NCBI GenBank assembly: GCA_021234155.1
Contig: JAJEKV010000002.1
Location: 15,909,428 to 15,973,427 of the forward strand
From: Isoetes taiwanensis
Taxonomy: Eukaryota > Streptophyta > Lycopodiopsida > Isoetales > Isoetaceae
Direction: 5' to 3'
Length of the DNA: 64,000 nt
Shown here: positions 5,168 through 49,325 of the stretch, piece by piece
How positions within the stretch are numbered: the stretch's first letter is position 1
Layout of the letters: each line of letters opens with the position of its first letter
Translations under genes and position numbers: made by a program
The notes under the pieces: generated by a model
Database searches by the model: none
Seen by the model: the letters and a program-made list of their open reading frames with translations, nothing else
Told to the model about the DNA's origin: nothing

Positions 5168-7107
5168 TTAGAGATCAAAAACCACTAACCGTTGGTTCCT
5201 TAGAAGTTTCTGCCCAGATGGGGCTTCAATACCATCGTCATCTTCCTTATTAGTCCCCTCCAGTAGCAACAACCTCCCCTTTTTCTTCTTTCTTGCAGCA
5301 GATGTGAGGGGCTGGGTTATATTAGCTGATCTCAAACCACTTGCAATACTTATATCTTGTGAATCAGGGGCCTCACATGCCTCTACTTGTTGAGTTGTAT
5401 CAGCAACCAGAATATCAGAAGACACAAGCAAATGAGTTGTTTCATCCTCCTTACTAGGGGGGTAGCTGCTTGCATCATCCTTTTAATGGGAAAGGCAGCC
5501 CCTTTAGGAGATGGAGCAATGTCTACAGTGTTAATCAGAGAAGTCGCCTTAAGGGGTGGGGCAATATCCTCATCAATAAGTCTGCTGTCACTTGATGCTT
5601 CCCCTGCAGCTATGACAGGGGCTAGATTGTTAGTTGCAGCACAACCATCGATTTGAGTATTCAACGTGGCCATATATACTGGAGTAGAGGTATCTTTGGC
5701 TACCAAGAGTGTAATGACCATGTTAGCAGAGTGATTGGCGAGCATCCTTTGAGCTGAGCTGGTATTAATCGAGGAAATACAGGCATTTGTGGCCACTTTA
5801 TTATCCATATCAGCTGTTGTAGGCAGTACTGAGCTGGAGGGCAGAGAAGCCCTTATATCATATCCTTGACTGGTCAAAGAAGAAGGAGGAGATATAGTGT
5901 CTGGAGGAATGACCAGATTCTGTATCTTTGATTGATCAAAGGTTCCTGACTGGTCAAGGATACCAGCCATGGCATCCTGTGGGGGAATGCCTAGATTCTC
6001 AGCATTTTCCATGTGCTGGAATAGAGGGGTGGACAGATCACATGAGGCAGACCCACATGAGCAGCACGATAAGGATGACTTTGAGTAAAAGGAGATGGCA
6101 CAGACCTAGAACATTCTCCCTTGTCGTTAGAATAAGCAAATCCTGACAAACCAGTAGATTGGACTCCTTGTACTACTGCACAAATCTGCTTGCCTTTAGG
6201 TTCTTGGACATCGGGTGCATGGGATCCGGGAACATGATTGGGTGCTTGTAATTCAGGTGCATGGGATCCAGGAGCACGATTGGGAGTAGTGGTCGTTAAA
6301 TTAACAGTCGAGGTGCAACCCAACTTTCCCATATCACAATTAATTCCTGCATGTAATCTAACTCCACAAACTACAGGGAATGGGAAGCCCAGTAGCAAGA
6401 ATTTGGAAATTAATATTTTCATCAAAGTAGCCCGAAAACTGAATGAACTCAGGAATAGACTTAAGAAGGTCTACTGAAATACATATTTTGGGTGCCTCAT
6501 CTGGCCTATTATCCATACAAACATACTCTCCAAGCTTAGAAGCAATTATCTTGAAGTACGGTTCATTCCAATATTTTGGGCTTAAGTCTGAGATCCAGAT
6601 AGGATAATAGAGGGCATCAGGTCGAAAGGCTCGGAATTCAGCCCTATATCTTTGTAGGAAGAGCTGCCCATGCTGGGAGGAGATCAGCCCTTTTCGGAAG
6701 ATTGCATTTACTTCCCTCGTGGTGGCCGCAGTTAGCAGGAAATAAGTATTCCTCAACACTTGAACCTTGATCTCTGTCTTGGTTCTGCAAACTCTTTCAA
6801 GAGTTTTTTTTATCTCAACCCGATTTGAACTGCCCCTACAAACCTTGCGAATGAGGCCAAACTTTTCAAAGTAGCGAATCTTATCCGCTACTACTGCAGT
6901 ATGTAGAGAAAATTTGCCCTGAGGGCTGGTTGTCATTCTTTTAGATAGAGGGGGAGCAGAGCTAGATGCAGAAACTTGAGCAAAGGTCCTAAGTTGAGCA
7001 ATGGAGAGCTTATTGGAGATATGAGTAGAAAGTTGAGCAAGGGACCTGCCATCTAAGCCTCCAGTAGAGAGCTTACTGGAGAGCTCATCGAGCTAGATTT
7101 TCTCCAT
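5168..7107 (-). pseudogene. LINE ORF1 (nucleic-acid-binding, DUF4283-like), broken
   Basis: ORF1 of plant L1 elements coats the RNA. The best-kept part is 6936-6358, with the DUF4283-like pattern YPIWISDLSPKYWNEPYF followed by IASKLGEYVCMD and PKICISVDLLKSIPEF. A Pro/Ser/Thr-rich and Asp-rich tail follows at 6425-5383 and 5431-5168, including an RKKKKGRLLLLEG basic patch. A possible start codon is near 7107, but the fifth codon there is a stop. At least three frame changes are present. The zinc knuckle that usually follows DUF4283 was not found. Confidence 0.7.
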
Positions 7108-28317: not shown

Positions 28318-29604
28318 TTACTCAAATAAGATCAGGCAGACATGCTGCTCCCAATATCTTTTCAAGTGCAATGTGTTTATAGGATTAGCTAGCAATCTCC
28401 CTGTACCAATTTCTTGCAAAAGATAAGAACTCGTACCTGCAATTGCATGGATCTTGAAAGGGCCTTCCCATAGGCCATCAAATTTACCTGCTGAATCTTC
28501 CTTTGCTTTATTCCACTTGAGCACCAATTCATTTACTTTGAAACTTCCTTGTAACTTGTGTGCAGCTTTGAAAGCTGCTATATCCTTAGCTTTTTTCCTC
28601 AGGTTGACATTCTCAGCTTCCAGCCTCTCTTCTTCAAGCATCAGCAACTTCTCATACCTGTCTCTGTAAGCATCCTCTAGCTGCATCTGGATCTTCATTG
28701 CCAACCTGAGTGATGGCAATTCTAGTTCAACTGGGACCACAGCTTCAACACCATAGACAAGGCTAAAAGGTGTATGGTTAGTAGCATTTTTTACAGTGGT
28801 CCTATATGCCCACAATGCATCATGCAGTTTAATATGCCAATCTTTTTTATGAACTTCAACTGTTTTTTTTAGGATGCTCTTCAACACTTTGTTTGTTGAT
28901 TCAGCTTGCCCATTGCCTTGAGGATAATAGGCAGAACTTTTCACATGTTTGACCTTTAATGCTTTGAGTAGATTACTAATGACATCATTTATGAACTGTG
29001 TTCCCCTATCAGATACAATTTTGAAAGGAATGCCAAACCTGGTGCATATGTGCTCATGTAAAAATCTTGCAGTTGTCAGAGCATTTGCCTGTCTAAGTGG
29101 AGTTGCTTCCACCCATTTAGTAAAATAATCTGTAGCAACTAGGATGTATTCATGCCTACCTTGAGATTCAGGAAATATAGGCCCTATAAAATCCAATCCC
29201 CAAATTTGAAAAGGACCAGGAGATACAATACCGAAGAGCAAAGAAGGTTGAAGGATTCTCCTACCATGAATTTGACACTTATGGCATCTTTTGATTGTCT
29301 CATAACAATCTTTGAACAAACTTGGCCAGAAGTAGCCTGACCTGATGATCTTCTTTGCAGTGGTTTCAGCTGCAAAATGCCCACCACAAATGCCTTCATG
29401 ACATGCTTCCACAATCAGCTCAGCTTCAGATCTGTTGACACATCTCAACAGCACTCCATTATAATCAATCTTGCACAACACATCTCCTACCATCTTGAAT
29501 GTTTTAGCTTTAGCTCTAAATCTTCTGGTTTGCTTAGTATCCATGTTTTTAGGCTGACTCTCCATTTCATTAGAATTCAATAAGGTCAAACCGCCAATCC
29601 TCAT
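28318..29604 (-). CDS. Integrase of element A, open over 428 codons
   Basis: Inserts the element cDNA into host DNA. HHCC zinc finger: H at residues 69 and 76 (EACHEGICGGHF) and CHKCQ about 30 residues later. Catalytic core: D in GLDFIGP, D in VSDRGTQF and E in QGNGQAESTN, giving a complete DDE. The C-terminal part has VLKWNKAKEDSAGKFDGLWEGPFKI, a GPY/F-like module with LWEGPF, and then ends without a chromodomain. It is the only long pol domain of element A without a frameshift. The first 20 or so residues may belong to upstream pol. Confidence 0.9.
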   Translation of the reverse strand: MRIGGLTLLNSNEMESQPKNMDTKQTRRFRAKAKTFKMVGDVLCKIDYNGVLLRCVNRSEAELIVEACHEGICGGHFAAETTAKKIIRSGYFWPSLFKDCYETIKRCHKCQIHGRRILQPSLLFGIVSPGPFQIWGLDFIGPIFPESQGRHEYILVATDYFTKWVEATPLRQANALTTARFLHEHICTRFGIPFKIVSDRGTQFINDVISNLLKALKVKHVKSSAYYPQGNGQAESTNKVLKSILKKTVEVHKKDWHIKLHDALWAYRTTVKNATNHTPFSLVYGVEAVVPVELELPSLRLAMKIQMQLEDAYRDRYEKLLMLEEERLEAENVNLRKKAKDIAAFKAAHKLQGSFKVNELVLKWNKAKEDSAGKFDGLWEGPFKIHAIAGTSSYLLQEIGTGRLLANPINTLHLKRYWEQHVCLILFE

Positions 29605-30178
29605 TCATCTTGCTAGACAAAACAAGGTTGGTAGAATCTCCGGTCTCACGAGGTGTTTCCATGTCCCCGCAATCCTTCAAAATCCTCAAATTCAAAAGCT
29701 CTCTACGTGAGATAATCACTAGGGCTCTTAATGGTTTTATTTGTTTTGACACTAAGATTATAATCTTGAATTTTTGCAGGCCCACCGCATAATTTGGCTT
29801 TGCTTTGACTTTTTCGAAATAATAATGGAAGGGGATTTTGGTGCATGAGCACCTTTACCTCATTGTGTTGGACAATATGTCCAAGTCTTTGTAGGAACCA
29901 CATTATTCCTGCAGCACTCTTTTCCAATCTAGCATATCTCATTTCTGTGTCTGACCATATCTTGCTTGTAAAGGCTATTATGCCATGATCCTGTAGTAGA
30001 GAAATGCCAACAGCTTTGTTAGTGATACTTATATAAGCTTTAAAAGGAAGACTATGATCAGGTGGTTTTAAAGCTTCCGATTGAGAAATTCGAAAGTGAT
30101 GAGTAACTCAAAAGCGACACGGGCACTCGGTGTCCAATTTACTTCCATATGTTTGCTCTCGCTTTTCTTTGTACTTGC
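29605..30178 (-). pseudogene. Native RNase H/connection region of element A, degraded
   Basis: Minus strand about 30050-29700: a KAYISITNKAVGISLLQDHG-like start, IIAFTSKIWSDTE, MRYARLEKSAAGIMWFLQRL and VKVLMHQNPL. This matches the degenerate native RNase H of Tat-type Ty3 elements. The usual DAS catalytic motif is replaced (ITNKAVG), so this domain is probably structural, which fits the gain of a second RNase H. Confidence 0.65.
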
Positions 30179-30710
30179 CTACTCTTGTCGATTTGCTATA
30201 GGACCCATAATATGTGAGAAATTAGGTACATAGATTCTTAAAAAACTAGTAAGTCCCATAAAGCTCTTTACTTGCCTCAGAGTTTTAGGTGGCACTACTT
30301 TCTTGAGTGCTTCCATCTTACCCTCTGAGACTTTGATTCCTTGAGCAGATACTTCATGTCCTAACAGTTCACCTTTTGAACATAGAAAAATACACTTCTT
30401 TGGGTTTAAGCATACACCACTTTCCCTGCACAGACTTATAATCATAGTCAGAAGTTTCATGTGTTGCTCTATCAGTGTTCCCAGGCAAAGGTCATCAAGA
30501 AACACCCTAAATTTATCAAGAGGCATGCTTTGAAAGATTTTATCCATAGCCCCCTCGGAATGTAGCGAGATGCATTCATCAATCCAAAGGGCATTTTTGC
30601 ATGGCAAAGGTTCCCCAAGGGGTTATGAAGGAGGTCTTAGCTTGGTTACGCTTCCTTGATTTTAATCTGATTAAAACCACGAAAATCCATCTAGAAATGA
30701 ATAAATCTCT
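30179..30710 (-). pseudogene. RT core of element A, frameshifted
   Basis: Continues the RT after the break at 30711. Minus-strand pieces around 30640-30690 keep the YPLPFLEEVLHATAGKE and MPFGL-type motifs in shifting frames. The frame 30607-30179 has the catalytic FRVFLDDLCLG (LDD), then CLNPKKCIFLCSKGELLGHE and LRQVKSFMGL. All palm motifs can be traced, but at least three frame changes lie within about 150 bp. Confidence 0.8.
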
Positions 30711-32009
30711 TTACCAGCGGTTGCATGAAGCACCTCTTCTAGAAAGGGAAGTGGATACTTGATCTTTTATAGTAGCCTTATTAAGGTCTCTATAATCTAT
30801 GCATATCATTATAGTTTTGTTCTTTTTTTCAACAGGTACTATGCATGACAGCCATTCAGGGTTGGTTATCTCAGTGATAACTTCAGCTTCTTTCATCTTT
30901 AATAATTCTTCTCTGATCAAGGTTAGCAAGGATCTATTTATCTTTCTCAGTTTTTGCATGACAGGTTTGGTTCCCTCTTTCATCTTTATTTCAAATTCAC
31001 ATATCTCAGTTTTTACACCTACCAACTCTGTGTAATCCCATGCAAATACATCTTTCCATTCTTCAAAGAATTCTTGTAATGATGCTTCTTTCTGAGTTTT
31101 AAACATATCTCCTAGAAACAGAGTTCTAATCTCATCATTCTTGGTAATAGTCAGTTCTTTTACCTCTTTCTCTTGCTGAGCATCTATTACCAGAATGGGA
31201 TGCAGTTGTGCAATCTCTTCATGTTCCAACTCTTCTTCTTTGATAGCTCCTTCAGCAAGGTAATCTAGCAGCACACTTCTGCATAGGGCATCTGCTTCAC
31301 AATTTTCATCCCTTGGTATGTAATTCAAACTCCATTTGTTAAATTTGCTCAACCAGCTCAAGGCTTCCTCTTTCAGCAATAGCATTTCTTGGTTCTTGGC
31401 TTGATACTCACCATTGACCTGCCTGCATATTAGTTGAGAGTCACCATAAATGGTTACTTCAGTCAGTCCTAATGAAATAGCTTCCTGCAAGCCAGCCAAA
31501 AGGGCTCTGTACTCAGCCATGTTGGAGGTTATGCCAACATGTATCCTGCCAACCTTTGAAAGCAATCTGTTAGCACAATCTTTGATTATAGCAGAAGAAG
31601 ATGCCACCCCTAGCTTAACAGATATTCCACCATCAAACCAGATGACACCCAAATTCTTGTGATCTACTGAGTTAGAAGAGTAAGAGGGTACCAATTCATC
31701 CAGGAGATCCAGGGCTAGAGGTAGTTTGTAGAATCCCATGGTGCTTTGTTCAAGCATTTCTTCTTCCAAAAAACTACAGATATTGGTACTCCCTGACTTG
31801 TTGTAGAGAGTTGTCCTTTTAACTCCATCAGATATGGTACACTCTCCTTTTGACCATACAGGTCTGGCATCAACTGTAGACATCCATCTCCTGCCAAGTA
31901 ACAAGTCATAGATGTCAGTAGTGCTGTTGCCAAACTTGAAAGCAACTACAAAAAAACTAGCTTGAACCACAATCCCTTCCGGGTCCATCCCGGTACACTG
32001 AAACAACAC
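30711..32009 (-). CDS. Pol segment of element A: protease C-term, extra RNase H, RT N-term
   Basis: A 432-codon open frame. Residues 1-60 are the protease C-terminal part (DIYDLLLGRRWMS). Residues 121-250 form a cellular/archaeal-type RNase HI with all four catalytic acids: VIWFDGG (D126), SNMAEYRALL (E166), IYGDSQL (D190) and NCEADAL (D240). Residues about 310-415 start the RT (WKDVFAWDYTELVGV, REELLKMKEAEVI, MICIDYRDLNKATIKDQ). The frame ends by a frameshift just after DLNKATIKDQ. The RNase H lies before RT, whereas Tat elements usually carry the extra RNase H after the native one, downstream of RT. It should remove RNA from the RNA-DNA hybrid during reverse transcription. Confidence 0.85.
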   Translation of the reverse strand: MLFQCTGMDPEGIVVQASFFVVAFKFGNSTTDIYDLLLGRRWMSTVDARPVWSKGECTISDGVKRTTLYNKSGSTNICSFLEEEMLEQSTMGFYKLPLALDLLDELVPSYSSNSVDHKNLGVIWFDGGISVKLGVASSSAIIKDCANRLLSKVGRIHVGITSNMAEYRALLAGLQEAISLGLTEVTIYGDSQLICRQVNGEYQAKNQEMLLLKEEALSWLSKFNKWSLNYIPRDENCEADALCRSVLLDYLAEGAIKEEELEHEEIAQLHPILVIDAQQEKEVKELTITKNDEIRTLFLGDMFKTQKEASLQEFFEEWKDVFAWDYTELVGVKTEICEFEIKMKEGTKPVMQKLRKINRSLLTLIREELLKMKEAEVITEITNPEWLSCIVPVEKKNKTIMICIDYRDLNKATIKDQVSTSLSRRGASCNRW

Positions 32010-32352
32010 CTAAAGGCATGATTTTAGCATTAGAAAATGATCTCAACATCATTGGTGAAGGTTTTGTGATCTTCAATCCACATTTTTGCATTATATGCTG
32101 AGGCATCACATTCAAAGAAGAACCACCATCTAACAAAACTCTAGGAAGTTGATGAGTACCAATTTTTGCTGAACATGTAAAGGCACCAGGGTCTTCCTCT
32201 TCCTGAGTCAGCACAATTTCAGAAGCAAAAGACACTGTTTCTACATTACTAGAGTTGATCACTTTCTGCCTATAGCTAGGAGCAATCCTCAGCAGAGTCA
32301 ATAAATCCAAAGTTACCTTAGAATTCTTAAGAATATGTTCAAAGTCATCCAA
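31700..32352 (-). pseudogene. Aspartic protease of element A
   Basis: The active-site motif is LLDGGSSLNVM (about 32140), in the DGGSS form typical of Tat/Athila-type elements rather than DTGAS. It is followed by GLKITKPSP and a second-half DIYDLLLGRRWM near 31900. The frame shifts once between the halves, around 32000. It would process Gag-Pol. Confidence 0.8.
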
Positions 32353-32470
32353 ATCCTTATCTTTTCTCTGAAATCTTTCAGCAGGAGCAGGAGCTATTAC
32401 CTGATAAGCTTGATCTTCTTTTTGAATTTCCTTCTCTTGGTAACTGACCGAGTTTGCATCCTTCTTGTTC

Positions 32471-33585
32471 TCACCATAGCTCTAGTTTGTCTTGCCATGA
32501 TCGCTTCTGGAATGCTTCTTCTTCCAAGAATCTCACAGATGCACTAGTCTCAGCCTTTTTGCCTTGTTCTTGTTTCTCCAAATACTCCTTCACCAAGCAC
32601 CTATCCTCATAATGGCCAATCTCCTTGCAGAACTTGCACACTGGGCAAACCTTTCCATAATGACCTTTTTCCCACACTTCAAGCAAGCCCTCAGAATAAC
32701 AAATGTCACTAGGGTGAGTATTCTTGGTGCAATGAATGCATGGTGGATAAGTTTTTATGTTATTTTTCATCTCCATGAGTTGCTTAGTCAACTCTGCTAT
32801 AGTTTCATCATCTTGGCCATCGACTTTTGATTCATTGGATTGAGCTTCTTCTTCAACCTTGGCTTTCCTCTTTTCCTTCACAACATACACAGGCTCTTGT
32901 TCATAATCAGGATAGAAAGGATCTGAAACATGTGGATGGCAAGTGTCAGGTAGGAAAGATAATTCTCGCAGATATAGAGGTAGCTTTGGCAAAGGCTTTA
33001 TGTATGGAATCAAAACCTTCTTGGTTTTGGATCCTAAGCATTTTCTTGTGAATTCTTGGCCTAGGAGCTAGACCTTTGATAAAAGCAGCTACAAAGAAGA
33101 GGGATGGAGTGGGGATATGACTCTTTTGGCATTTTCTAAGGTAGGCATTGAATCTTTCAACATATTGGTTGATGCTCTCTCCACCGAATGCGTAAAGTTT
33201 GAAGCTCATTGGCCAGCTCTTGTGGTGCCGACAGCTTTCCAAACCTGCTCAAGAACTGTTCTACAAGACTCTCATAAGTATTAGTACCCATAACAAAGTA
33301 GTAACATGTTCACACCACGCCTGGGTTCACTAGATTTCATACACTTCACAAATTCGGAGAACTTACAACCTTTTTATTACCATAATCTTTGTAGTAGTCT
33401 TCAAATGTCTTCAAGAATTGATTGGCATTCATCTTTGGGCTCAAAATAGGAGGAGTAATTGGTAGGTTCAGTTCAAAAATAGGAGGCAGAGTCAAATTAG
33501 GAGGTACATTGCTTGAACTGGGCATTCCAATGGGATCAGTAGGTTCTGGAGCTTCAGTCTGCTCACTTCTCCTACTTGGAGGCAT
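32471..33585 (-). pseudogene. Gag of element A (capsid and zinc-knuckle region), frameshifted
   Basis: The likely start is the Met at 33585 (MPPSRRSEQTEAPEPTDP), the first ATG inside the internal region. A Pro-rich N-terminus is followed by FLKTFEDYYKDYG, a capsid-like segment at 33242-32946 (GESINQYVERFNAYLRKCQK, FIKGL) and a Cys/His region at about 32750-32560 (CPVCKFCKEIGHYEDRC, a C-x2-C-x4-H-x4-C knuckle). At least two frame changes separate the parts. Gag would package the element RNA in cytoplasmic particles. Confidence 0.8.
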
Positions 33586-36056: not shown

Positions 36057-36231
36057 TCCCATTTCACTAAGCATTATTGATTAATTGTAGACTTTGTGGT
36101 TATCCACATTATATTTCGAGTCAAAAACTATAATACAATCATATTCTATTGTTATTTACCTGAATGGATTTTTTTTGTGTTCGATTCCCAAAGGGTTTTT
36201 TTAAAATAAACCATGGCGATCCTTCTTGTAG

Positions 36232-37868
36232 TGTGACGGTCCAAGGGAATATACGCCATAAATACGTATATTCCTGGATCCGTCACCATACAAGTCTATC
36301 TTTATAGCCTTGTATACCATAGATTGTGGCACTAGGGGGCATGGCTAAGTTATTCTCATAACTTAGCCAACCATAGGTTAAGCCCACGTGGCCTTAACCT
36401 ATTGGGGCACCGCCACACAGGACTCACCCGATTGGTGCCACGTGGCATCCTAGGTGGACCTAACTTATATAGGCATAAACCCTAACCCTAGACCTCTTTC
36501 CAGCCCTAGCACCCAGAGACTCACCTACTTGTTCGAAACCCCGTTTCGAACATCGTTCGTTGTGGCATAGGCTGGTGCAGCAGCCCCAGCAGGGTAGACC
36601 CGTTCTTGGAGTAGGAACAGCAGCTTGTGAGTCGAAGACCATGGAGGCGCCCGGATCTGGAGGGAGAGCATCAGGAGCAGGTATGTAGGATAGTAGTTGT
36701 GATAGCTCATCTGGGATTAGCATTCCAAGATGTGCTAGTATTTTGTATCTAGAGTAGAGCCATCCTAGAACCCATATTCAACATCTTGAACCCTAATCAA
36801 GGAACCCTAACTATTAGTTAGTTGTATGATTAGGTTAAGATGTTCTTCTTATGATTATTCTCATGATGTGATGATTATGTGATGTTGGTTGATCATGTTT
36901 GCTCCTCTTGTATTGGGAAGGGGGGTAGAGACCTAGGGCCATATGTAGTATGTTCCTAGAGTAGATCCCTTAGTTCCTATTAGTTGCGGCCTGTGCATAG
37001 GAGCCCACCAGGCTATTGAGGCTATGATACGACTCAGCACCAGATAACGGGGCTAGAGGGAAAGTGGAGGGAGGATCCCTGCCGAGTGGGGGCTTCGGGG
37101 GATCCCATAGTGGGCTAGGCCTATGGTCGGTCACTTCTGGGTGGGCGAGCATGGGTCCGACACCTCCCGGGCAATGGTGTTGCCCCGCCTTCGGGAGCCG
37201 CAAGTGCTGGCTTGGCTCTCGCTTTGGGGGTTCACTGGTACTAATCGCGGTGTCGCCACGATTCTCTAGCCGCCCACGGCACCTCTAGACCCTGGGAAGG
37301 GGAGATGCAACCCTTCCTGCCTCATCGGACCAGGGAGATGCAACCTGGAGTAGTCCCGATGGGTGATGCCATGGGATTGCGTATCCGGAAGGCTAGAGTC
37401 CCTGTCGAAGCCTGATCTAGCCCATCCGCAAAGTATGCAATGTGAAGGGCGGATGGAGTGGTCAACCCTAGCCATTGTTCTATGCCAGCCCCTCGCCATT
37501 GCCATGACTGGTCCGCTCTATCTTGAGGCTCAGCCCGCCACCACCCTCCTTACGAAGTCCGGTAGGGGTAGGAGCTCTCCTGTTTTATGGTTTGTGATTA
37601 TCATCTTTGCATTGGTTTATGTGCGATGCACTACCCTCCGAGGTAGTATTTGTATATGTTTTATGCTAGTTCTGACGTGTTATCGCTTCCGCTGTTATAG
37701 GAGCCCATAGGGGAAGGGCGCGCAAGACACCTTCGTGTTCCCTCCCCGCACTAAGAGTCACCTCGAAAGGGAGGGGTTAGACGGAAGGGCCCATGCGTTG
37801 CTTGAGCCGGATGGGGATTTCTGCTGGGTATCTGGTGGGGCCGTATGTTTAGCGGTGGAGCCGTCACA
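36232..37868 (+). repeat. 5' LTR of element B
   Basis: 1637 bp. A TATATAGG TATA-like box lies near 36467, with two CACGTGG motifs upstream (about 36385 and 36440) and a telo-box AAACCCTAA at 36477-36485, all in the same places in the other LTR. Confidence 0.97.
36466..36485 (+). promoter_or_regulatory. LTR core promoter: TATA box and telo-box
   Basis: TATATAGG followed within 10 bp by the plant telo-box AAACCCTAA. The arrangement repeats in the 3' LTR at about 47916-47935. Strand and position fit an LTR promoter. Confidence 0.5.
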
Positions 37869-37869
37869 A

Positions 37870-37881
37870 TGGTATCAGAGC
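37870..37881 (+). other. Primer-binding site of element B (tRNA-Met)
   Basis: TGGTATCAGAGC, exactly complementary to the 3' end of plant initiator tRNA-Met, one base after the 5' LTR. Confidence 0.95.
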
Positions 37882-38440
37882 AATGTTCTTGGTTGACCAA
37901 GAACTAGCACTGACCATAACCATGAAGTAGTCTAACAGGCCTATAGGGGTGTGAAATAAACATTTCCACCATCGAACCGCGAAAATGGGGGAAAAATTTT
38001 TCTCCTAGGTAGTGGGTCAGGACTTAGGTTAAGTGTTAGACGAAAGTTGAGTGAGTCAAACTCATCTTCTAGTAAAATTGGAGTGAAAATCATGCATCTG
38101 CATCAAATTTCACCTAAAATGGGTCGAAGAATCATGCCAATCGGAGACCCAGTGAAAAAATGGCAAATTCATAGATTACACTTCGAACCATTAGAAAAAT
38201 TCGAAATTCAAGTGTAATATCAGTTAATATGGATTTAACATATACATTAATAATTAAATAATTACTAAATATCTTGTAATTAATAAGGGGGGCTAATAAA
38301 TAGGGGTAATTATGGTAGGAGAATATTCTCAGGGACCCTCCTCTTTAAATATCTCTGACACCTCATTTTTCCCTCCAAACTTTCCTCCACCTTCTCTCTC
38401 TTGACCAGCCTATCCCCACCCGTTTTCTAGACCGTTAAGT
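37882..38440 (+). other. Leader of element B upstream of the H3-like gene
   Basis: No gene seen. AT-rich until about 38330, then CTCTTTAAATATCTC (38341-38355), a possible TATA element about 90 bp before the H3-like ATG, and a C/T-rich stretch typical of a plant 5' leader. Confidence 0.45.
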
Positions 38441-39524
38441 ATGGCCAGAACCAAACAGACCTACAGGAAGCCAGGACAGCGCCCCACACTCTCGATGGCG
38501 AACCTAGCAGCGGGACGCCATGTGAAGAAGATCCCGGAGCACCTCCGACCCAAGAAGGGGGAAGAGGAGCTTCCCCTACCCCGCAGCAGCAGCGACGGCA
38601 CCTATCACGATGCCGAGCAGCCCCGCCAGCCAGGAACGCGAAAGAACCGACGATCTCGCCACTTCGGGGCCACAGATAACCGGGCGGAAGAGCAGGAGGA
38701 AGAGCGTGTCCAAAGAACAGTGGACGGCTGGCCTCTACGCCAAGGAAGAAAGGCAAGGAGAAGGTTGCGGAGTGGCCAGAAGAGAGGGCCGCAAGGAGGA
38801 AGAGGGAGCGCGAGGAGGAGCTGCGGCGGCAGGAGCGGAGGACGAAGAGAAGAAACGACGGTCCCCGCCGAACCGTCGTGATAGAGGAGCCTCCCCGGCG
38901 CGAGGAGGAGCACGTGGAAGGAGAGGAGCAGGAGGAAGAAGAGCAGGAGGAAGAAGATGAGCAGGGGGAAGGGGCGGACCCAAGACCACCTTACCCAGTG
39001 TGGCCCAAGCCACCTAAGGTGGTAAAGAAGCAGAAGGCGGGCGAGCGGGCCTTCGCCTTGAAGGAGGACCGTCTCTACCGGCGCCGCCTCAAGGCATACC
39101 AAGAATACCTTCGTCGGTGGACGAGGTATAATGATTGGTACTGCCGGCAAAACATCCAGCGCACCGTGGAGGGAGGCCGGCCGCCAAAGAACCAGCCTAA
39201 GCCGCCGCCGCCACAGCCCGAGAAGCCGAAGAAGGTCCACCATGGGCCTAATTCTGGGCATTACACTCCTGTCTTCCGGAGATTAGACACTTTCAGCAGT
39301 GCACTAATCCCCGATTAGGGAAGGCACCTTTTGAGCGACTCATGCGGGAGGTGATGGCGGAGTTCGTCACCGACTACAGAGTGACGTCGCTCACAACTCG
39401 GGTGTTGCAAGTAGCCGCCGAGGCTGAGCTCACCCGGGTTGTTTGAGGAAGGGAACCTCTCGCGATCCACGCCAAGAGGGTGACTCTAATGCCCAAGGAT
39501 ATATATTTATTGCCGCATCCATAA
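38441..39524 (+). CDS. Histone H3-like protein with long charged insert, inside element B (frameshifted)
   Basis: The ATG at 38441 opens with MARTKQTYRKPGQRP. The first nine residues after Met equal the histone H3 tail except Ala7 to Tyr; Ser10 is Pro. A long Arg/Lys/Glu-rich linker follows, including an acidic run at about 38905-38975. From about 39260 comes an H3 fold: PFERLMREVMAEF (helix 1; H3 has PFQRLVREIAQDF), VLQVAAEAEL (helix 2; LALQEAAEAYL), then a FEEGNL block and AIHAKRVTLMPKDIYL (H3: AIHAKRVTIMPKDIQL). About 36 of 62 fold residues agree with H3 in my hand alignment. Helix 3 is cut to YLLPHP before a stop at 39522. As sequenced the frame breaks near 38680-38760, 39314 and 39441-39460; the first open piece is 146 codons. 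GC content is higher than in gag-pol, suggesting capture of a host gene. It could be a CenH3-like or other H3 variant, but the linker is far longer than a normal tail. Confidence 0.88.
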
Positions 39525-40237
39525 AGGAATATCCTTGAGGATGCATTTTTTGTTCAAACTAATGTAATTATTAAGTTTTCCCCATAAATATAAAATTTTG
39601 TTTTGCAATTAGTAGTAGACAAATCCTCCTTCCCGCATTAGATAAAATTTTAATTGAAGCGGCCCCGAAATCGGGTCACACGCCGCCAGACCGCCGCGCC
39701 CGCGCGACGCAGAGGCGCGTTTCAAGGCCTCGACCCGGTTTCGCAAAACTTTATCAATTTAAGGTCTAAATCATGTAAGAAAAACCCCTAGTTAGATTAG
39801 AATCGTCCAAATAGTCATCCTAGCAATTCGAATTCTTCAAAAATCCACAGCAGAGCTAAGAATAGACCCAAATCGGGTCACACCGCCAGCCACCGGCTGC
39901 GCGCGGCGACGCAGAGGCGCTTTCAAGGGCTCGACCGATTTCGGCCAATTTTTCGCCCAATCGACCAATTTTGACCCAACAAACTGCCATGTAACGTTTC
40001 TTGCTTTGTTTTGTTTAGAATTGCACTTCATGGTAGCTCATTTGGACACCCAGGGCCATAGATTTGGAGTCTCTCCCATCAAGAACCTTTGTGCACGGAA
40101 CCCGAGGCACCTCTAGTCTATAAAAAGGGACCCTCATTTGTCATTTTTTTCCCATTAGAGTTGCTCTCAGCCCCTTTGGCGATTTCTTTGGCTTTTGCTC
40201 ATTTCCATCAGCCATTTTCCATAGCTATTCCTGTTCA
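39525..40237 (+). other. Intergenic region between H3-like gene and ORF504
   Basis: No gene. A GC-rich segment of about 90 bp is repeated directly (near 39664 and 39869), sharing AAATCGGGTCACAC and GACGCAGAGGCGC. A canonical TATA box, CTATAAAAAGGGA, lies at 40118-40130. Confidence 0.6.
40118..40130 (+). promoter_or_regulatory. Internal TATA box upstream of ORF504
   Basis: CTATAAAAAGGGA, about 110 bp before the ATG at 40238, well placed for a separate plant Pol II promoter inside the element. Confidence 0.5.
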
Positions 40238-41752
40238 ATGGCGCCCTCAAGTTTTGTCAGATGGTATAATGAGACCAATCACATTCGTGATTGTTCCCCT
40301 GAACAAGTCTTCCATGTTTTTGATTATCTCTTTGATCTCCATGCCACTCTGACTAGAACTCCATACTACACTGACATCATTTGTCAATATGATCAGCAGG
40401 TCTTACCCTGGGAAGTTAGCTTGCCACCTAGGGGAGGGAAATGGGTTTCTCTAGATTCTCTTGCTCAAGCCATAGGTGGGGGATCCAGGGGTAAGAACAA
40501 GCTATGGGATAGAACCAGAAACATGCCAGACTACATGACCTGTAAGCATCATAGGCATAGGTACCTCTCAAGCCAGGCAGCCTTAGCATTGTTCATGCAG
40601 TATAGGGCAGTTAACCAACCAGGGGAGCCGTCAATCCAACCCTTGGATTTGGCACCTCTCGACACCCGAGCAGCACAGATAAGCATCCAGGAGATCCAGA
40701 CCTTAGCATACGAACACTACGGCTCCACATCAGAAGCACCTACGTTGCAAATCGAGCAGGATTACGAAGAGGAAGAGGAAGAGAACCCAAGCTGGGAGAT
40801 GAGGGAGGCAGGAAGGATGGAGAGGCGTATAGCTCGGCAACAGGAAGCGCTAAGGCGGGACTTTGAGCCACCAATGGGCATCACGGGCCTCACCCCAGTA
40901 ATCGTCGATGGCGAGGAGTACATATTCGCCACCGACATCCTCAACCTCCCCTATTGCCAAGAGGAGAACCTCAGGATAGACGAACTCCTAGGCCTAATTG
41001 CACAGGAACAGGGTAGCGACTTCATCGACTACTCCTACCAGGAGATACCAAGGGAAGTAGCGGAGCGACATTCCTATGCGGGGGAAACTATGTCGGACAT
41101 CCAGGCATATCAACAGATAAGGCAGATGTATCAGCAACAGGAACCCATCATTCCAGAAGAAGAATTTCAGGAAATCCAAAGCAGGTTGTACAAGCCGGGA
41201 AGGGGCCCAAGCGCCAGCAGACCAGTGCGCTCCATGAGTACGCGAGAAGCTCGTAGCAGCATCAATTTGGAGAGTGCAACTACTATGTGGAGAGACCATG
41301 AGGATCTTATGGCATTGGACATCTTCGGCGAAGCAGCTGGGAGAAAAGGTACGGGCACCGGGGGCGGAACCAAGGGCAAGTCACTCAGGTACTATCTTCC
41401 GGCCCTTAGCCAGGGGCAGATGATAGTTTTCCATAAAGAATTTAGCCCAAGAGGTGAAGAGTCCGTAGCACTCCTTATAGCACTTTCGGGCTTTGGTCAG
41501 CATGCGAGAATAGATGTGAAAGTAGACCATGTTATCCTCTTCAAGAGATCAGTAGCACTTCATGCTCTCGACTTCGCAAGGGGCCACCTCAGGGATGCGC
41601 ACTTGTCAGTAGTAGCGGCAACTGCACCAGAACTCCCAGCACCACAGGTAGCAAGAGCATTGGAGGGAGGATCGGCGGCTAGAATCCTGCAGAACATGGG
41701 CAAGGGCACAGGATTCAAGAAAATCAAGGACTTTTTCAAGCGACATCGTTGA
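40238..41752 (+). CDS. ORF504: intact accessory protein of unknown function in element B
   Basis: 504 codons, ATG to TGA, uninterrupted, between the H3-like gene and gag. I do not recognise the family. The N-terminal 160 residues look globular (FVRWYNETNHIRDC, VFDYLFDLHATLTRTPYY, WEVSLPPRGGKWVSLDSLAQ). An acidic run (YEEEEEENPSWEM) follows near residue 172, then an Arg-rich segment (RRIARQQEALRRDFE), a Gln-rich helix (IQAYQQIRQMYQQQEPIIPE) and a C-terminal domain (YYLPALSQGQMIVFHKEF, LIALSGFGQHARIDVKVDHV, SVALHALDFARGHLRDAHL) ending in a basic tail (FKKIKDFFKRHR). No Cys/His zinc motif, protease, chromodomain or membrane segment is seen. It is distinct from the element's gag, which follows and has its own knuckle. 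An extra structural protein, a chromatin-acting partner of the H3-like protein or a captured host gene are all possible. Confidence 0.8.
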   Translation: MAPSSFVRWYNETNHIRDCSPEQVFHVFDYLFDLHATLTRTPYYTDIICQYDQQVLPWEVSLPPRGGKWVSLDSLAQAIGGGSRGKNKLWDRTRNMPDYMTCKHHRHRYLSSQAALALFMQYRAVNQPGEPSIQPLDLAPLDTRAAQISIQEIQTLAYEHYGSTSEAPTLQIEQDYEEEEEENPSWEMREAGRMERRIARQQEALRRDFEPPMGITGLTPVIVDGEEYIFATDILNLPYCQEENLRIDELLGLIAQEQGSDFIDYSYQEIPREVAERHSYAGETMSDIQAYQQIRQMYQQQEPIIPEEEFQEIQSRLYKPGRGPSASRPVRSMSTREARSSINLESATTMWRDHEDLMALDIFGEAAGRKGTGTGGGTKGKSLRYYLPALSQGQMIVFHKEFSPRGEESVALLIALSGFGQHARIDVKVDHVILFKRSVALHALDFARGHLRDAHLSVVAATAPELPAPQVARALEGGSAARILQNMGKGTGFKKIKDFFKRHR

Positions 41753-41980: not shown

Positions 41981-43299
41981 CAAGGAACTCAAGTGCAGGA
42001 TCTCAAGATCAGCACCGACCACGCAATTGGGTACCAAGGAATCTGTTTGGCAGGGAACAAGAGGATGTTGAGCAGGATATGTCACCAGAGGCGATCCAAC
42101 GAAGGTTGGTGCGAGATGAGGAATCGATGCAACACCTCATCAAGCGGGCGACACCTCTCATGAATGCATGGGGAAGATGGTCACCCACCTCCACCTTGTT
42201 TTCCGGGTGGTGACGAAGTCCCTCAGCAGGAAGGGGAGGGCAACCAGGGGAACGCCAGGGATAGAAGAAGGAAGAGGAGAACCAGGAGCCCATCATCATC
42301 TAGCTCCAGCTCATCGGATAGTTCTTCCAGTGAGGACAGTTCTAGTCTCGACAAGCGGTGACTCGCACACCTAAGGCAAGGAAAAGGGCAAGAAAGACAG
42401 ATGATTACCGAAAAAGGTGGATAGTGCTATGAGCAATGTGTGGAAGACAAAGGAAGTGGGCGGTTCCGGGAAAAGACAGATCAGGCATGGAAGCTGAAGC
42501 ATGGCTTGATGAAATGGACGAATTTGGTAACTCTTACGGTATGAAAGACAAGGATATAGGGAAAGTTGCTACAGCTAACCTTATTGGACCGGCAAGGATC
42601 TGGTGGAAGGGATATGCTAAGTCTAACAAGCTGAAGAGGAACAATTGCAGATTTAAGACTTTTAGCAAGGCTTTCCGTAAGCACTATGTACCAAGGTCCC
42701 ATACTAGTAGACAGATCCAGCAGTTTTACAGGTTGAATCAGGGTAGCTTATCAGTGGCTAAGTATACCGAAGAATTCATGAGACTTAGACTTCATGTCCC
42801 GGGAGTATCAGAAAGGCAAGCAGTGGACACCTATATTGAGGGGTTGAACAGCAATATCAAGAGGCTTGTTAGAGCAATCAACCCAAGGTCAGTTGCAGAG
42901 GCCGAAGATAAAGCTATAAGTTTGGAAGAGGCACCAGCAACTCCAGCAGAGAAGCAGTCAACCTTCAGGGGTAAGAGTTCAGGGCAGTATCAGGGACAAT
43001 ATCAGGGTAAGCAATCGCCAGCCTACACCATGGAGAGTCAGCAGCAAGGTAAGGGTCAGAGCAAAGCTTTTGGGGACCGTAAGCCACAGAATGCATCAGG
43101 GGGCAGCGCTCTTAAGCGTCTCCTAGACAGTCTGCCGAAGGAAAAGAGACAGGAATGCATTGAGAAGAAGTTATGCTTCAGGTGCTTCCAGCCAGGGCAC
43201 CGGACACATGATTGTCCATTCGTCATGCAGTCAGCCTTGGCAGAACTCTTGGATTGGGACTCCCCAACAGAAGCGCACCTTTTTATTTTAAGACGATGA
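41981..43299 (+). pseudogene. Gag of element B with CCHC zinc knuckle, N-terminal half frameshifted
   Basis: The N-terminal part, about 41995-42210 (NWVPRNLFGREQEDVEQDMS, LIKRATPLMNAWGRW), breaks into a Ser-rich segment at 42230-42360 (RRTRSPSSSSSSSSDSSSSE) in another frame. The main frame runs 42436-43299. It has the retrotransposon gag domain (WLDEMDEFGNSYGMKDKD, ANLIGPARIWWKGYAKSN, FRKHYVP, YTEEFMRLRLHVPG, DTYIEGLNSNIKRLVRAI) and a zinc knuckle, CFRCFQPGHRTHDC. Gag coats and packages element RNA. The ATG at 42436 is probably not the original start. Confidence 0.85.
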
Positions 43300-44488
43300 C
43301 CAGCAGGAGGCCCGGGACTTCATAGATGGTGAGTGTCACATATGTGCAAACATTGAGTCGGATGATATAGAGAATCAGTCGACCGTCATTGCAGCTGATG
43401 GGATCATAGATAGTAAGCCATATGTAGTCCTCATAGATACAGGTAGCTCTCATAATTTTGCATCTCCTAGATTGGCTGCTCTAATGAAGAACAAGGTATT
43501 GAAGTCTAAGCCAAGGCCAGTAGCTATGGCAAATGGTGCCATTCGGCACACTAAGGGGAGGAGGATCACCTTTGACATAGACCTTAGTGGGGCTAAGTGG
43601 CCGATGGGGAGCGAAGTCATGGATATTGGAAGGTATGATCTTATTGTGGGAATGGAATTCTTGAAGCCAGCTAAAGCAGTAATTGATTGTGACCGGAACG
43701 AAGTCGCCATGACGGCACCGGACGGCAACAAGTTGATAGTCAAAGGTAAGAAGCTAGATTCTCCCATGCAGTGTATTTCTTTGAAGCAGCTAAGGAAGAG
43801 CATAGAAAGGAATAAGGTGGATTACATCTTGAGGTTGGAATCAGTTGGGCCAGGCAAGCAGGAGGGAAGTGACCCAAAGGGGAATCAGTTGCCCAGCCAG
43901 ATAGCAAGGCTTATTTCAGAGTTCAAGGATGTATTCCCGGATGAAATCCGGCAGCTGCCACCCTATAGGGGTGTAGAATGTGAGATCACATTGGCTCCAG
44001 ATGCGAAGCCTACCAGTAAGGCACCATATAGAATGAGCACCCCAGAATTGATTGAGCTCAAGAAGCAGCTTCAAGAATTGCTAGACCTTGGATTCATAAG
44101 GGCAAGTGTGTCTCCTTTTGGAGCACCTATACTCTTCGTAAAGAAGAAAGACGGGAGCTTAAGAATGTGCATAGACTATCGCCAGCTCAATAAGCAGACG
44201 ATAAAGAATAAGTATGCATTGCCGAGGGCAGATGACCTAATGGATCAGCTACAAGGAGCAAAGGTATTCTCTAAGATTGATTTGAGATCAGGATACCATC
44301 AGATAAGAATAAAAGAAGAGGACATCCATAAGACTGCTTTCAGAACGCGGTATGGTCATTTTGAGTTTACAGTAATGCCCTTTGGATTGTCGAACGCTCC
44401 CGCAACGTTTATGCGCCTCATGAACGATATCTTCAGAGACTTCTTGGATGAGTTTGTTATTGTCTTCTTCGACGACATCCTAATCTGA
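43295..44488 (+). CDS. Protease and RT fingers/palm of element B
   Basis: The frame is open from 43292, overlapping the end of gag by 8 nt in the +1 frame, with no ATG at its start. Protease: [17 protein letters not shown] (DTGSS). Linker, then [89 protein letters not shown] and the catalytic [10 protein letters not shown], where FFDD replaces the more usual Y/F-x-DD. A TGA directly after DDILI ends the frame; the rest of RT continues in the next frame, consistent with one indel. Confidence 0.92.
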
Positions 44489-45743
44489 CAAGTCCCTTGA
44501 AGAGCATTGTCAGCATCTCAGGAAAGTGTTGGAGAAGTTGAGACGTCATCGGTTGTATGGGAAGCTCTCTAAGTGCCACTTTGCAACAGGCCGGGTGGAG
44601 TACTTGGGGCATGTAGTAACATCCGAGGGAATCTCCACAGATCCATCTAAGATTGAGGCAATAGTTGATTGGCCAGCTCCAAGGAATGTGGCAGAAGTAA
44701 GAAGCTTTCTCGGGTTGGCGGGATACTACAGAAAGTTCGTGAAGGACTTTGCTAAGTGGGCGTCCCCTCTGTCGGACCTCACTAAGGCCAAGAAGATTAA
44801 GGATTGGGCTAGCCATTGGTTAGAGAAAGTCCAAGCTTCTTTTGAGAAGCTTAAAGAGGCCTTAACAACAGCACCAGTGCTTGTTCTCCCGGATCCGAGT
44901 AAGGATAAGTTGGTAGCAACAGATGCAAGCAAGATAGCAACAGGGGCAGTCTTGATGCAAGAAGGAAGGGTAGTCGCCTACGACTCGAAGAAGATGAACG
45001 ACGCCGAGCAACGCTACCCAACCCATGATCAGGAGCTGCTAGCCATTGTCAGAGCATTGAGGATATGGAGGCATTATTTGCTGGGAAGGAAGTTTCAGTT
45101 AGATACTGATCACCAGAGCCTTCAGTATCTTTTCACCCAGCCACTCCTCAACTTAAGGCAAAGGAGGTGGATGGAATTCCTTGAGGAGTACGATTTTGAT
45201 ATTATATATAAGCCTGGTAAGCTTAATGTTGTAGCAGATGCCCTCTCTAGGAGGCCATTTCAGACAAGGACGCATTGTAATGCGATTTCCACTCTTTCGA
45301 GTGAGTTTGGCAAGAAGATTGAGGACTCCTTGCCAACCGATGTGGACTTCAAGGAGGTGTGGGAAAGCCTCTCCAAGGAAGCCAGAACAGACAAGGAGCG
45401 GGAAACCTTCAAGCACTTTAAAAAGGAAGGCAACCTGTTGTACCACAAGCATAAGTTGTGTGTGCCCGAATCTTCAGGGGTAAGGAAGTTAATTCTTCAT
45501 GACACACATAACAGCCCAATAGCGGTGCATGCTGGCTTCATGAAGACCTATTTCAAGATTCGAAGTAGTTACTTCGCCAGAATGAAGAGGCGAGATAGCT
45601 GCATATATTGGGATTGCCGGTTATGTCACAGCAGAACCAAGGCAGAGAGCAAGCTGCGGATTCTCGGGTGCTTTAGAGCCATTGGGGTGCCAAATGCAAA
45701 AGTGGGAGGTCATAAGCATGGATTTCATCACGGGACTCCCTAG
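44489..45743 (+). CDS. RT thumb, RNase H and integrase N-terminus of element B
   Basis: Continues RT one frame over: [55 protein letters not shown]. RNase [17 protein letters not shown] (first Asp), [16 protein letters not shown] (Glu), [14 protein letters not shown] (Asp). Then [11 protein letters not shown] and the integrase HHCC finger start ([22 protein letters not shown]). A frameshift within the finger garbles the frame near 45590-45743. Confidence 0.92.
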
Positions 45744-46322: not shown

Positions 46323-46814
46323 GTGACCGTAAGGGAGTTTAAGGTGGGCGATACCGTTTGGTTGAAGATCAAGGTGAAGCAAGCCAAGCTGCGAATTGGG
46401 AGCTGCAAGAAGCTTGCCCCTAGGTGGGCTGGCCCGTTCAAGATTTTGGAGAGAGTGGGCTCTCAAGCCTACAAGTTGGATCTTCCAGCCCATCTTAAGG
46501 TCCACAAGGTCTTCCACGTAAGTTTATTAAAAAGGCACAATCCTAACCCTGAGGAGGTTTTGGATACTCCAACCTTGTTGGAAATGACGGAGGAGCAAGT
46601 AGAAATAGTGCCTGAGTTACTTCTTGATAAGTCATTCAAGAAGACTAGGAGGTCTCAGTTCCTCCAATATTTGGTCAAGTGGAAGCACTTACCCGTGGAA
46701 GATGCGACATGGGTATTGAAGCAAGATTTGGAGAAGCAATACCCAGAGTTTATGAAGGAGTTTGATGGGCGAGTCGTCTCCGACTTGGTCGACCCCGACT
46801 TGCCAGGTGGTTAG
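46323..46814 (+). CDS. Integrase C-terminus with GPY/F module and chromodomain, element B
   Basis: 163 codons. Residues about 8-75: KVGDTVWLKIKVKQAKLR, LAPRWAGPFKILERVGSQAY (GPY/F-type module) and HKVFHVSLLKRHNP. Residues about 110-150: FLQYLVKWKHLPVEDATWVL followed by LEKQYPEF, a chromodomain with Y, W and W at cage-like positions. Chromodomains of this kind direct integration to H3K9-methylated chromatin in chromoviruses. In-frame ATGs are absent near the start, so this is the 3' end of pol after a frameshift, not a separate gene. Confidence 0.92.
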   Translation: MTVREFKVGDTVWLKIKVKQAKLRIGSCKKLAPRWAGPFKILERVGSQAYKLDLPAHLKVHKVFHVSLLKRHNPNPEEVLDTPTLLEMTEEQVEIVPELLLDKSFKKTRRSQFLQYLVKWKHLPVEDATWVLKQDLEKQYPEFMKEFDGRVVSDLVDPDLPGG

Positions 46815-47660: not shown

Positions 47661-47675
47661 CTAAGGGGGGGAGAA
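47661..47675 (+). other. Polypurine tract of element B
   Basis: CTAAGGGGGGGAGAA directly abuts the 3' LTR start TGTGACGG, as expected for the plus-strand primer. Confidence 0.9.
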
Positions 47676-49320
47676 TGTGACGGTCCAAGGGAATATACGC
47701 CATAAATACGTATATTCCTGGATCCGTCACCATACAAGTCTATCTTTATAGCCTTGTATACCATAGATTGTGGCACTAGGGGGCATGGCTAAGTTATTCT
47801 CATAACTTAGCCAACCATAGGTTAAGCCATTATCCACGTGGCCTTAACCTATTGGGGCACCGCCACACAGGACTCACCCGATTGGTGCCACGTGGCATCC
47901 TAGGTGGACCTAACTTATATAGGCATAAACCCTAACCCTAGACCTCTTTCCAGCCCTAGCACCCAGAGACTCACCTACTTGTTCGAAACCCCGTTTGAAC
48001 ATCGCTCGCTAATGGCATAGGCTGGTGCAGCAGGCCCCTGGCCAGGTAGACCCGTTCTTGGAGTAGGAACAAACACTTGTGAGTCGAAGACCATGGAGGC
48101 CGGGATCCGGAGGGAGAGCATCAGGAGCAGGTATGTAGGATAGTAGTTGTGATAGCTCATCTGGGATTAGCATTCCAAGATGTGCTAGTATTTTGTATCT
48201 AGAGTAGAGCCATCCTAGAACCCATATTCAACATCTTGAACCCTAATCAAGGAACCCTAACTATTAGTTAGTTGTATGATTAGGTTAAGATGTTCTTCTT
48301 ATGATTATTCTCATGATGTGATGATTATGTGATGTTGGTTGATCATGTTTGCTCCTCTTGTATTGGGAAGGGGGGTAGAGACCTAGGGCCATATGTAGTA
48401 TGTTCCTAGAGTAGATCCCTTAGTTCCTATTAGTTGCGGCCTGTGCATAGGAGCCCACCAGGCTATTGAGGCTATGATACGACTCAGCACCGGATAGCGG
48501 GGCTAGAGGGAAAGTGGAGGGAGGATCCCCCCGCCGAAAGTGGGGGCCGGGGGATCCCATAGTGGGCTAGGCCTATGGTGGTCACCGTGTGGGCGAGCAT
48601 GGGTGGACACCTCCCTGGGGCAATGGTGTTGCCCTGCCTCTCGGGAGCTGCAAGTGCTGGCTTGGCTCTCGTTTTGGGGGGTTCAGTCGGGTACGAATCG
48701 TGTGTCGTCACGATTCTCTAGCCGCCCACGGCACCTCTAGACCACAGGAAGGGGAGATGCAACCCTTCTGCCGCCTCATCGGACCCAGGGAGATGCAACC
48801 GGAGTAGTCCCGATGGGTGATGCCATGGGATTGCGTGATCCAGGAAGGCTAGAGTCCCTGTCGAGCCCTGATCTAGCCCATCCGCAAAGTATGCATGGAG
48901 GGGCGGATGGAGTGGTCAACCCTAGCCATTGTTCTATGCCAGCCCTCGCCATTGCCATGACTCGGCCCCGCTCTATCTTGAGGCCTAGCCCGCCGGGCCA
49001 CCCTCCTTACGAAGTCCGAGCGGGGTAGGAGCTCTCCTGTTTTATGGTTTGTGATTATCATCTTTGCATTGGTTTATGTGCGATGCACTACCCTCCGAGG
49101 TAGTATTTGTATATGTTTTATGCTAGTTCTGACGTGTTATCGCTTCCGCTGTTATAGGAGCCCATAGGGGAAGGGCGCGCAAGACACCTTCGTGTTCCCT
49201 CCCCGCACTAAGAGTCACCTCAGAGTGCGGGGTTAGACGAAGGGCCCATGCGGTTGCTGAGCCGGATGGGGATTTCTATTTGGGTATCTGGTGGGCCGTA
49301 TGTTTAAGGGGAGCGTCACA
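47676..49320 (+). repeat. 3' LTR of element B
   Basis: 1645 bp, colinear with 36232-37868. A stretch of about 350 bp (48121-48480 against 36673-37030) looks identical, while GC-rich stretches such as 48525-48700 differ by many small indels. Confidence 0.97.
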
Positions 49321-49325
49321 TGTAG

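Follow-up and report, generated by a model that had tools for sequence, protein, structure and literature searches.

A selected histone H3-fold gene between the primer binding site and gag in Ty3/gypsy retrotransposons of Isoetes taiwanensis

Can an LTR retrotransposon carry a core histone gene, and if so, is that gene an idle capture or something the element uses? The question was raised by a stretch of 64,000 nucleotides of the Isoetes taiwanensis genome (the window), in which the initial annotation had placed a gene with both ends of histone H3 inside an LTR element. In the current study the element and the gene were delimited, and relatives were sought in the whole assembly (1,658,258,908 bases in 1110 contigs). 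One Ty3/gypsy family and at least one diverged relative were found to carry a selected H3-fold gene between the primer binding site (PBS) and gag.

The element in the window and its H3-like gene

The carrier is a Ty3/gypsy chromodomain element of 13.1 kb. Its LTRs, target site duplication, PBS and polypurine tract were all identified by direct repeats, pairwise alignment and direct reading, which bears out the earlier description of a well-delimited element enclosing the H3-like gene. The 5′ LTR (36232..37868) and the 3′ LTR (47676..49320) lie on the plus strand, as do all internal features, and are flanked by the duplicated target site TGTAG (36227..36231 and 49321..49325). The PBS-like sequence TGGTATCAGAGC (37870..37881), which we take to be of the initiator tRNA-Met type, follows the first LTR, and the polypurine tract AAGGGGGGGAGAA (47663..47675) precedes the second.

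Pfam searches and reading frames gave the domain order of a Ty3/gypsy chromovirus: gag with a Ty3 capsid and a weak CCHC knuckle (42436..43299), protease and reverse transcriptase (RT; 43292..44488), RNase H and the start of the integrase (44484..45743), and the integrase C-terminus with a chromodomain (46323..46814; PF00385, E 1e-11). The protease match fell below the Pfam cut-off, the integrase zinc domain just below it, and the frames are broken. The element thus resembles the plant Ty3/gypsy chromoviruses (Tekay, Reina, CRM, Galadriel and Tcn1, as presented in the accessible text of PMC3350952) in its LTRs, 5-bp target site duplication, PBS, gag, protease, RT, RNase H, integrase and chromodomain, but differs from them in that its PBS and gag are separated by two extra features, an H3-like gene at 38441-39524 and a second open reading frame, ORF2 (40238-41752). 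In an alignment by eye, the chromodomain has I and L at the cage positions Y24 and Y48; it was therefore classed by eye as type II, apparently lacking the first and third aromatic-cage residues. The cage rule for type II chromodomains is given in the available parts of PMC3350952 and PMC6317226, according to which their partners are not known.

The H3-like gene begins with MARTKQT at 38441, its start reading MARTKQTYRKPGQRPT. The ARTKQT tail and the first part of a linker occupy the first reading frame (38441..38680), a charged, proline-rich linker continues over the two other frames (38685..39267), and the histone fold, from alphaN to alpha3, follows with a broken frame (39273..39524); this order was matched in 12 unbroken relatives. 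A translated search of the region against histones, as had been suggested, matched 39276-39443 to the Pfam Histone family (PF00125, E 3.9e-8) and to histone H3 chains in the PDB (best E 9.6e-8). The C-terminal sequence AIHAKRVTLMPKDIYL named in the initial annotation was present, and in the 12 unbroken relatives the protein continues to LARRI[RC]KE[YR]P. The claim of an H3 gene thus held for the ARTKQT tail, the fold and the position between PBS and gag, but not for an intact gene in the window, where the copy is split into pieces in all three plus-strand frames up to a stop at 39522-39524. A protein search with these pieces returned 27 matches among 3891 candidates, all of them H3 folds covering at most 34% of the query, and gave no relative sharing the linker in a database that may lack Isoetes proteins.

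Part of the damage in the GC-rich H3 gene (60.3% GC) of the window copy may be assembly error, because differences between the two LTRs concentrate in GC-rich columns. The LTR pair differs by 81 mismatches and 23 gap events, and when sorted by local GC content the differences number 2 in 441 columns below 45%, 23 in 400 at 45-55%, 84 in 666 at 55-65% and 16 in 156 at 65% or more. These differences were read as assembly error in GC-rich sequence, the alternative being true mutation. According to the available text of PMC8566536, the published I. taiwanensis assembly is based on ONT reads and used miniasm, racon and pilon. GC-linked LTR differences of this kind would also mislead the dating of LTRs in this genome.

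A TATA-like TTTAAATA (38344..38351) lies 97 bp upstream of the H3 start codon, and the motif occurs 87-98 bp upstream of H3 in all 40 family copies that were compared. It is a possible candidate for an internal promoter, and its conservation may reflect shared descent only.

ORF2 (40238..41752, 504 aa) belongs to no recognised family. The sequence TATAAAAA (40119..40126) lies 119 bp before it, and CTATAAAWAG occurs within 1 kb after H3 in 34 of the 40 copies. ORF2 is itself under purifying selection (w 0.118 over the 7 of 40 copies in which it is unbroken). It gave no protein homolog at E 0.01 (the database may lack Isoetes proteins) and nothing above the Pfam cut-offs, and an AlphaFold model made without an alignment was useless (mean pLDDT 33.5). 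That ORF2 might be another histone was considered, and nothing was found in favour.

H3-bearing elements across the genome

A DNA search with the H3 segment gave 40 scored matches among 1567 candidates, all of which match nearly the whole segment at 78-100% identity, and all 40 (family 1) were fetched. The end of a 5′ LTR and the leader precede H3 in 39 copies (the exception is L041), the exact 12-base PBS motif in 32, and ORF2 follows in 38 (the exceptions are L013 and L038). The start MARTKQT is kept in 39. A private insertion into the window copy, which the initial annotation had argued against, is excluded because H3 occupies the same place after LTR and leader in 39 of the 40 copies. To the question, raised in the initial annotation, whether other copies share an intact frame, the answer is yes in part: a single unbroken frame of 361-373 aa occurs in 12 of the 40 copies, one of which (L038) matches PF00125 at E 4.6e-29, but the other 28 lack the full unbroken frame (350 aa in L048, shorter in the rest).

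A protein search with the unbroken copy L046 gave 111 scored matches among 23036 candidates, at 76-100% identity. By manual count an in-frame stop was listed in 33 of these and none within the matched stretch in 78, not all of which are full length, a minority of the 111 covering only part of the query. Together the DNA and L046 searches name at least 134 distinct family-1 loci.

No copy lacking H3 was present among the 40, all of which had been found by H3 itself; a reverse test that starts from RT therefore weighs more. At least 26 of 119 scored RT loci are preceded on the same strand, at a distance of 4.0-5.6 kb, by a family-1 H3 from among the matches listed, against 0.01 expected from shifted coordinates, and at least 5 of the other 93 have H3 nearby at another distance or in another order. 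The pairing count is a lower bound and is not decisive for those 93. Four RT loci outside the H3 lists were fetched at the expected place: an H3 fold is present at three of them (L060, L061 and L062), and at the fourth, L063, the stretch matches no part of the element. H3-less relatives, which the annotation had named as evidence against its reading, are thus possible. The H3 of L060, L061 and L062 is 77, 45 and 70% identical to that of L046 over the best stretch, and where aligned the H3 DNA of L061 and L062 is 68-69% identical to the window element. These loci form a sister type of family 1 whose RT is 96-97% identical to that of the window, and either faster evolution of H3 or an exchange of modules could account for similar RT with diverged H3.

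H3 folds extend beyond family 1. With a canonical H3 query, the best 150 of 9022 candidates comprised 15 canonical H3 genes (96-98% identity) and 135 others (71-86%), many of the latter in open frames of 400-567 aa. A plant CENH3 query gave, as the best 150 of 7735 candidates, 15 canonical H3 genes and 135 others, and 39 non-canonical loci were common to the two queries. United with the 40 family-1 DNA matches, these amount to at least 271 H3-fold loci on 113 contigs, besides the 15 canonical genes; of the 231 loci outside the family-1 DNA list, six were read (L049, L050, L051, L056, L057 and L058), and the CENH3 query did not lead to a recognisable host CENH3 among the loci read.

Three of these (L049-L051) form family 2, with proteins of about 410 aa in which a new N-terminal region of about 310 residues, beginning MA[IN]TK[SR]APDP, precedes an H3 fold ending RRIRGE[QR]P. 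The fold is 86-89% identical to host H3 (PF00125 at E 1.2e-41 in L050). The N-terminal region had no protein homolog at E 0.01 in a database that may lack Isoetes proteins, and a match to the family-1 linker (E 0.001 in compositionally biased sequence) was not accepted as homology. Placement between LTRs was verified in one family-2 copy, L050, which lies between LTR stretches (L055:1-1142 and L054:6298-7439) that are 96.4% identical. A PBS directly follows the first LTR, and the element continues with distant relatives of ORF2 at the corresponding place (E 1.7e-12 and 4.7e-6), gag, protease and integrase; RT is missing. A third lineage (L058/L059), traced back to a PBS motif upstream, has an N-terminal region similar by eye and a fold ending LHLARRIRGETR.

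Selection on the element H3 and its origin

Purifying selection on the family-1 H3 gene is strong and extends over the fold, the tail and the linker, as shown by the comparison of dN and dS across copies that the initial annotation had proposed. In the 12 unbroken copies (66 pairs, NG86), dS was 0.479, dN 0.065 and w 0.137 for the whole gene; w was 0.091 for the first 14 columns, and the fold gave dS 0.180, dN 0.016 and w 0.090. Picking unbroken copies biases the sample against stops, but not against missense changes. Five phylogenetically independent pairs agreed, with 229.8 synonymous and 135.2 nonsynonymous differences over the whole gene (pN/pS 0.170, P 9e-62) and 34.0 and 11.0 in the fold (pN/pS 0.095, P 9e-14 against neutrality). 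In the three copies of family 2, w was 0.045 for the H3 part and 0.108 for the region before the fold. In both families dS of the fold was below that of the rest of the gene (0.18 versus 0.35-1.41 for the parts of family 1, and 0.37 versus 0.94 in family 2).

Membership in the H3 fold was found by profile in the window piece, L038 and L050, with H3 chains as the best PDB matches. Measured against a host H3 (L052), the copy compared from family 2 and that from family 3 show 11 differences each over 99 residues, and the family-1 copy shows 39 over 96. Identity of the family-1 fold is 57-59% with host H3 and 44-50% with three angiosperm CENH3, and the host residues K56, L65, F84 and E94 are lost from it. 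Residues 105-131, which comprise loop 2, alpha3 and the H3-H3′ bundle, are best kept, with 85-89% identity to host H3 when a single copy from each of the three families is compared, and in the alignment with host H3 the interface residues are largely kept. The canonical tail, residues 1-36, is absent: by eye, family 1 keeps ARTKQT[A/Y]RK and nothing canonical beyond about K9, while in family 2 no more than MA[IN]TK, a possible remnant of MARTK, is left. Substitutions relative to host H3 cluster at positions 86-90, a patch picked after the alignment had been viewed, into which 3 of the 11 substitutions fall in each of families 2 and 3 (P 0.009 in either case); the 4 of 39 in family 1 are not significant (P 0.086). 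Positions 87-90, together with 31, are given in the available text of PMC4054674 as the differences between metazoan H3.1 and H3.3.

The centromeric H3 variant, CENH3, resembles the element protein in joining an H3 fold to a divergent tail that starts ARTK. The F at position 54 and the motif TNLLI of family 1 are reminiscent of CENH3. The further comparison speaks against placing the element protein with CENH3: the alignment shows no loop 1 insertion, and the element H3 stands apart from the three angiosperm CENH3 in both trees, which have a weak backbone.

The natural reading is that the H3 was derived by capture of a host gene, and the trees would be compatible with any source gene, date or number of captures. 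The initial annotation had taken high GC content as a sign of capture, and this argument fails, since the element gene has 60.3% GC and the host H3 coding sequence (L052) 47.9%. Trees of about 100 columns, whose backbone is again weak, place families 2 and 3 close to host H3 and give family 1 a long branch. Constraining the element H3s to a single group costs 1.40 log units (p-AU 0.317), which neither establishes nor rejects one capture. In favour of a single capture are the shared position of H3, the relatedness of ORF2 and the LTRs between family 1 and family 2, and the presence of T107A and I124L in both family 2 and family 3.

Possible functions of the element H3

Parasites that encode a core histone are known among viruses, examples being the H4 of bracoviruses and the histones of Marseillevirus. 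Those carriers are DNA viruses and not retroelements. As the initial annotation had also held, an LTR retrotransposon with a histone gene does not appear to have been described; none was found in the open-access literature, a scope outside which most subscription papers and preprints lie, and the finding is probably new to the literature. The survey PMC6317226 uses the word histone once, for a chromodomain target, and the word is absent from the main text of two Isoetes genome papers (one being PMC8566536) and of PMC3726574. At least two genomes of the genus have been sequenced (PMC8566536, PMC10541799).

The nearest known system, as far as the available text of the two sources goes, comes from Dothideomycete fungi, in which hAT DNA transposons contain transduplicated H3-like genes (PMC3538342, PMC6710886); there too a mobile element bears such a gene in many copies. 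The extra copies of Pseudocercospora fijiensis and five other species are reported there as broken by RIP (PMC6710886), and of the 26 copies in Pyrenophora tritici-repentis, 23 apparently retain coding capacity and 21 are identical (PMC3538342). Unlike these carriers, which are DNA transposons with terminal inverted repeats, the quillwort carrier is an LTR retrotransposon, its H3 fold is fused to new N-terminal parts, and its diverged copies are under purifying selection. The window element was rejected as a hAT transduplication on account of its LTRs and Ty3 pol. Host genes inside LTR elements are also known from rice, sorghum and maize (PMC3726574), and the accessible part of that paper mentions none that diverged families of elements have retained.

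The explanation we put forward tentatively, at somewhat less than an even chance, is that the elements encode their own H3 variant, which would pair with host H4 and change or mark the chromatin of the element. The protein would be made from element RNA, perhaps from the conserved TATA-like site or from the LTR, and would enter nucleosomes with host H4, probably on the element's own new DNA. There the element-specific N-terminal part would replace most of the modifiable H3 tail, with ARTKQT[A/Y]RK and a long charged linker in family 1 and the region of about 310 residues in family 2, and host marking and silencing might misread the resulting chromatin. The fold is common to all lineages, and the part that differs is the region ahead of it. 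That the protein is a working histone H3 variant is possible, and we lean somewhat against it: the four missing host residues and the 57-59% identity of family 1 leave nucleosome formation not assured, and the fold might be selected for a different purpose, such as binding of H4 or of chaperones or the packing of nucleic acid. If the protein does serve as a histone, the basic chromatin unit that the host uses for silencing has been appropriated by a retroelement. The many copies in which the tail is replaced by other sequence are a natural experiment in H3 evolution.

A more far-reaching proposal, which we regard as speculative and rather improbable, is that the lineage builds its own chromatin. 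Having carried an H3 for enough time to diversify into several architectures, it would deposit this H3 on its own DNA by way of altered chaperone contacts, and the chromodomain integrase would read the self-made chromatin. The type II chromodomain would thereby gain a partner, and the element a mark of its own that guides it to insertion sites and lets it escape silencing.

Several other roles were weighed against the element-specific variant. An unlikely one is that of an integration tether, in which the pre-integration complex or the particle is anchored in chromatin through the H3 fold, or the type II chromodomain recognises element-H3 nucleosomes on old copies, so that new copies land in element-rich chromatin. 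The same element does encode a chromodomain, apparently missing cage residues 1 and 3 when aligned by eye, of a type whose partners are given as not known in the available text of PMC6317226 and PMC3350952, and the fold comes fused to a long linker or to another region; however, no fusion of H3 to Gag or integrase was seen. We think it quite unlikely that the protein is a decoy that titrates away host H4, the chaperones of H3 or the enzymes modifying H3K4/K9 and so weakens silencing in trans, not being built into chromatin. The MARTKQT start and the altered patch 86-90 would suit such a role, but in family 2 at most MA[IN]TK of the tail is left and yet the fold is the most constrained (w 0.045), and for a decoy it would be unnecessary to conserve the entire H3-H3′ interface. 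As a basic histone-like protein compacting RNA or cDNA in the particle, for which the fold and the charged linkers would serve, it is less plausible still, since Gag already has a CCHC knuckle (weak Pfam matches) and the near-canonical fold of families 2 and 3 exceeds what packing needs.

Adoption of some copies by the host as H3 variants could occur at single loci, but as the source of the selection signal it is highly improbable, given that 39 of 40 copies stand after LTR and leader and 38 of 40 before ORF2 and that the signal is spread over independent pairs. It is hardly credible that the gene is a passive passenger, captured from the host and multiplied together with the element but of no use to it. 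Hundreds of genes have been captured by LTR elements in rice and sorghum, according to the available text of PMC3726574, and 28 of the 40 copies lack a full unbroken frame, but the fold, the tail and the linker are all under strong purifying selection, as is the family-2 gene, and the long unbroken frames and the presence of H3 in diverged lineages also speak against it.

The window also contains other mobile sequences. A second Ty3/gypsy element (28318-33067, minus strand) has an extra RNase H (RVT_3, E 9.6e-23), placed by eye between protease and RT, an order given for the TatI elements of club-mosses in the accessible text of PMC6317226. Two further minus-strand stretches, 1557-2294 and 6358-7092, hold an RVT_1 piece, by its look from a non-LTR element, and a piece of a DUF4283 protein.
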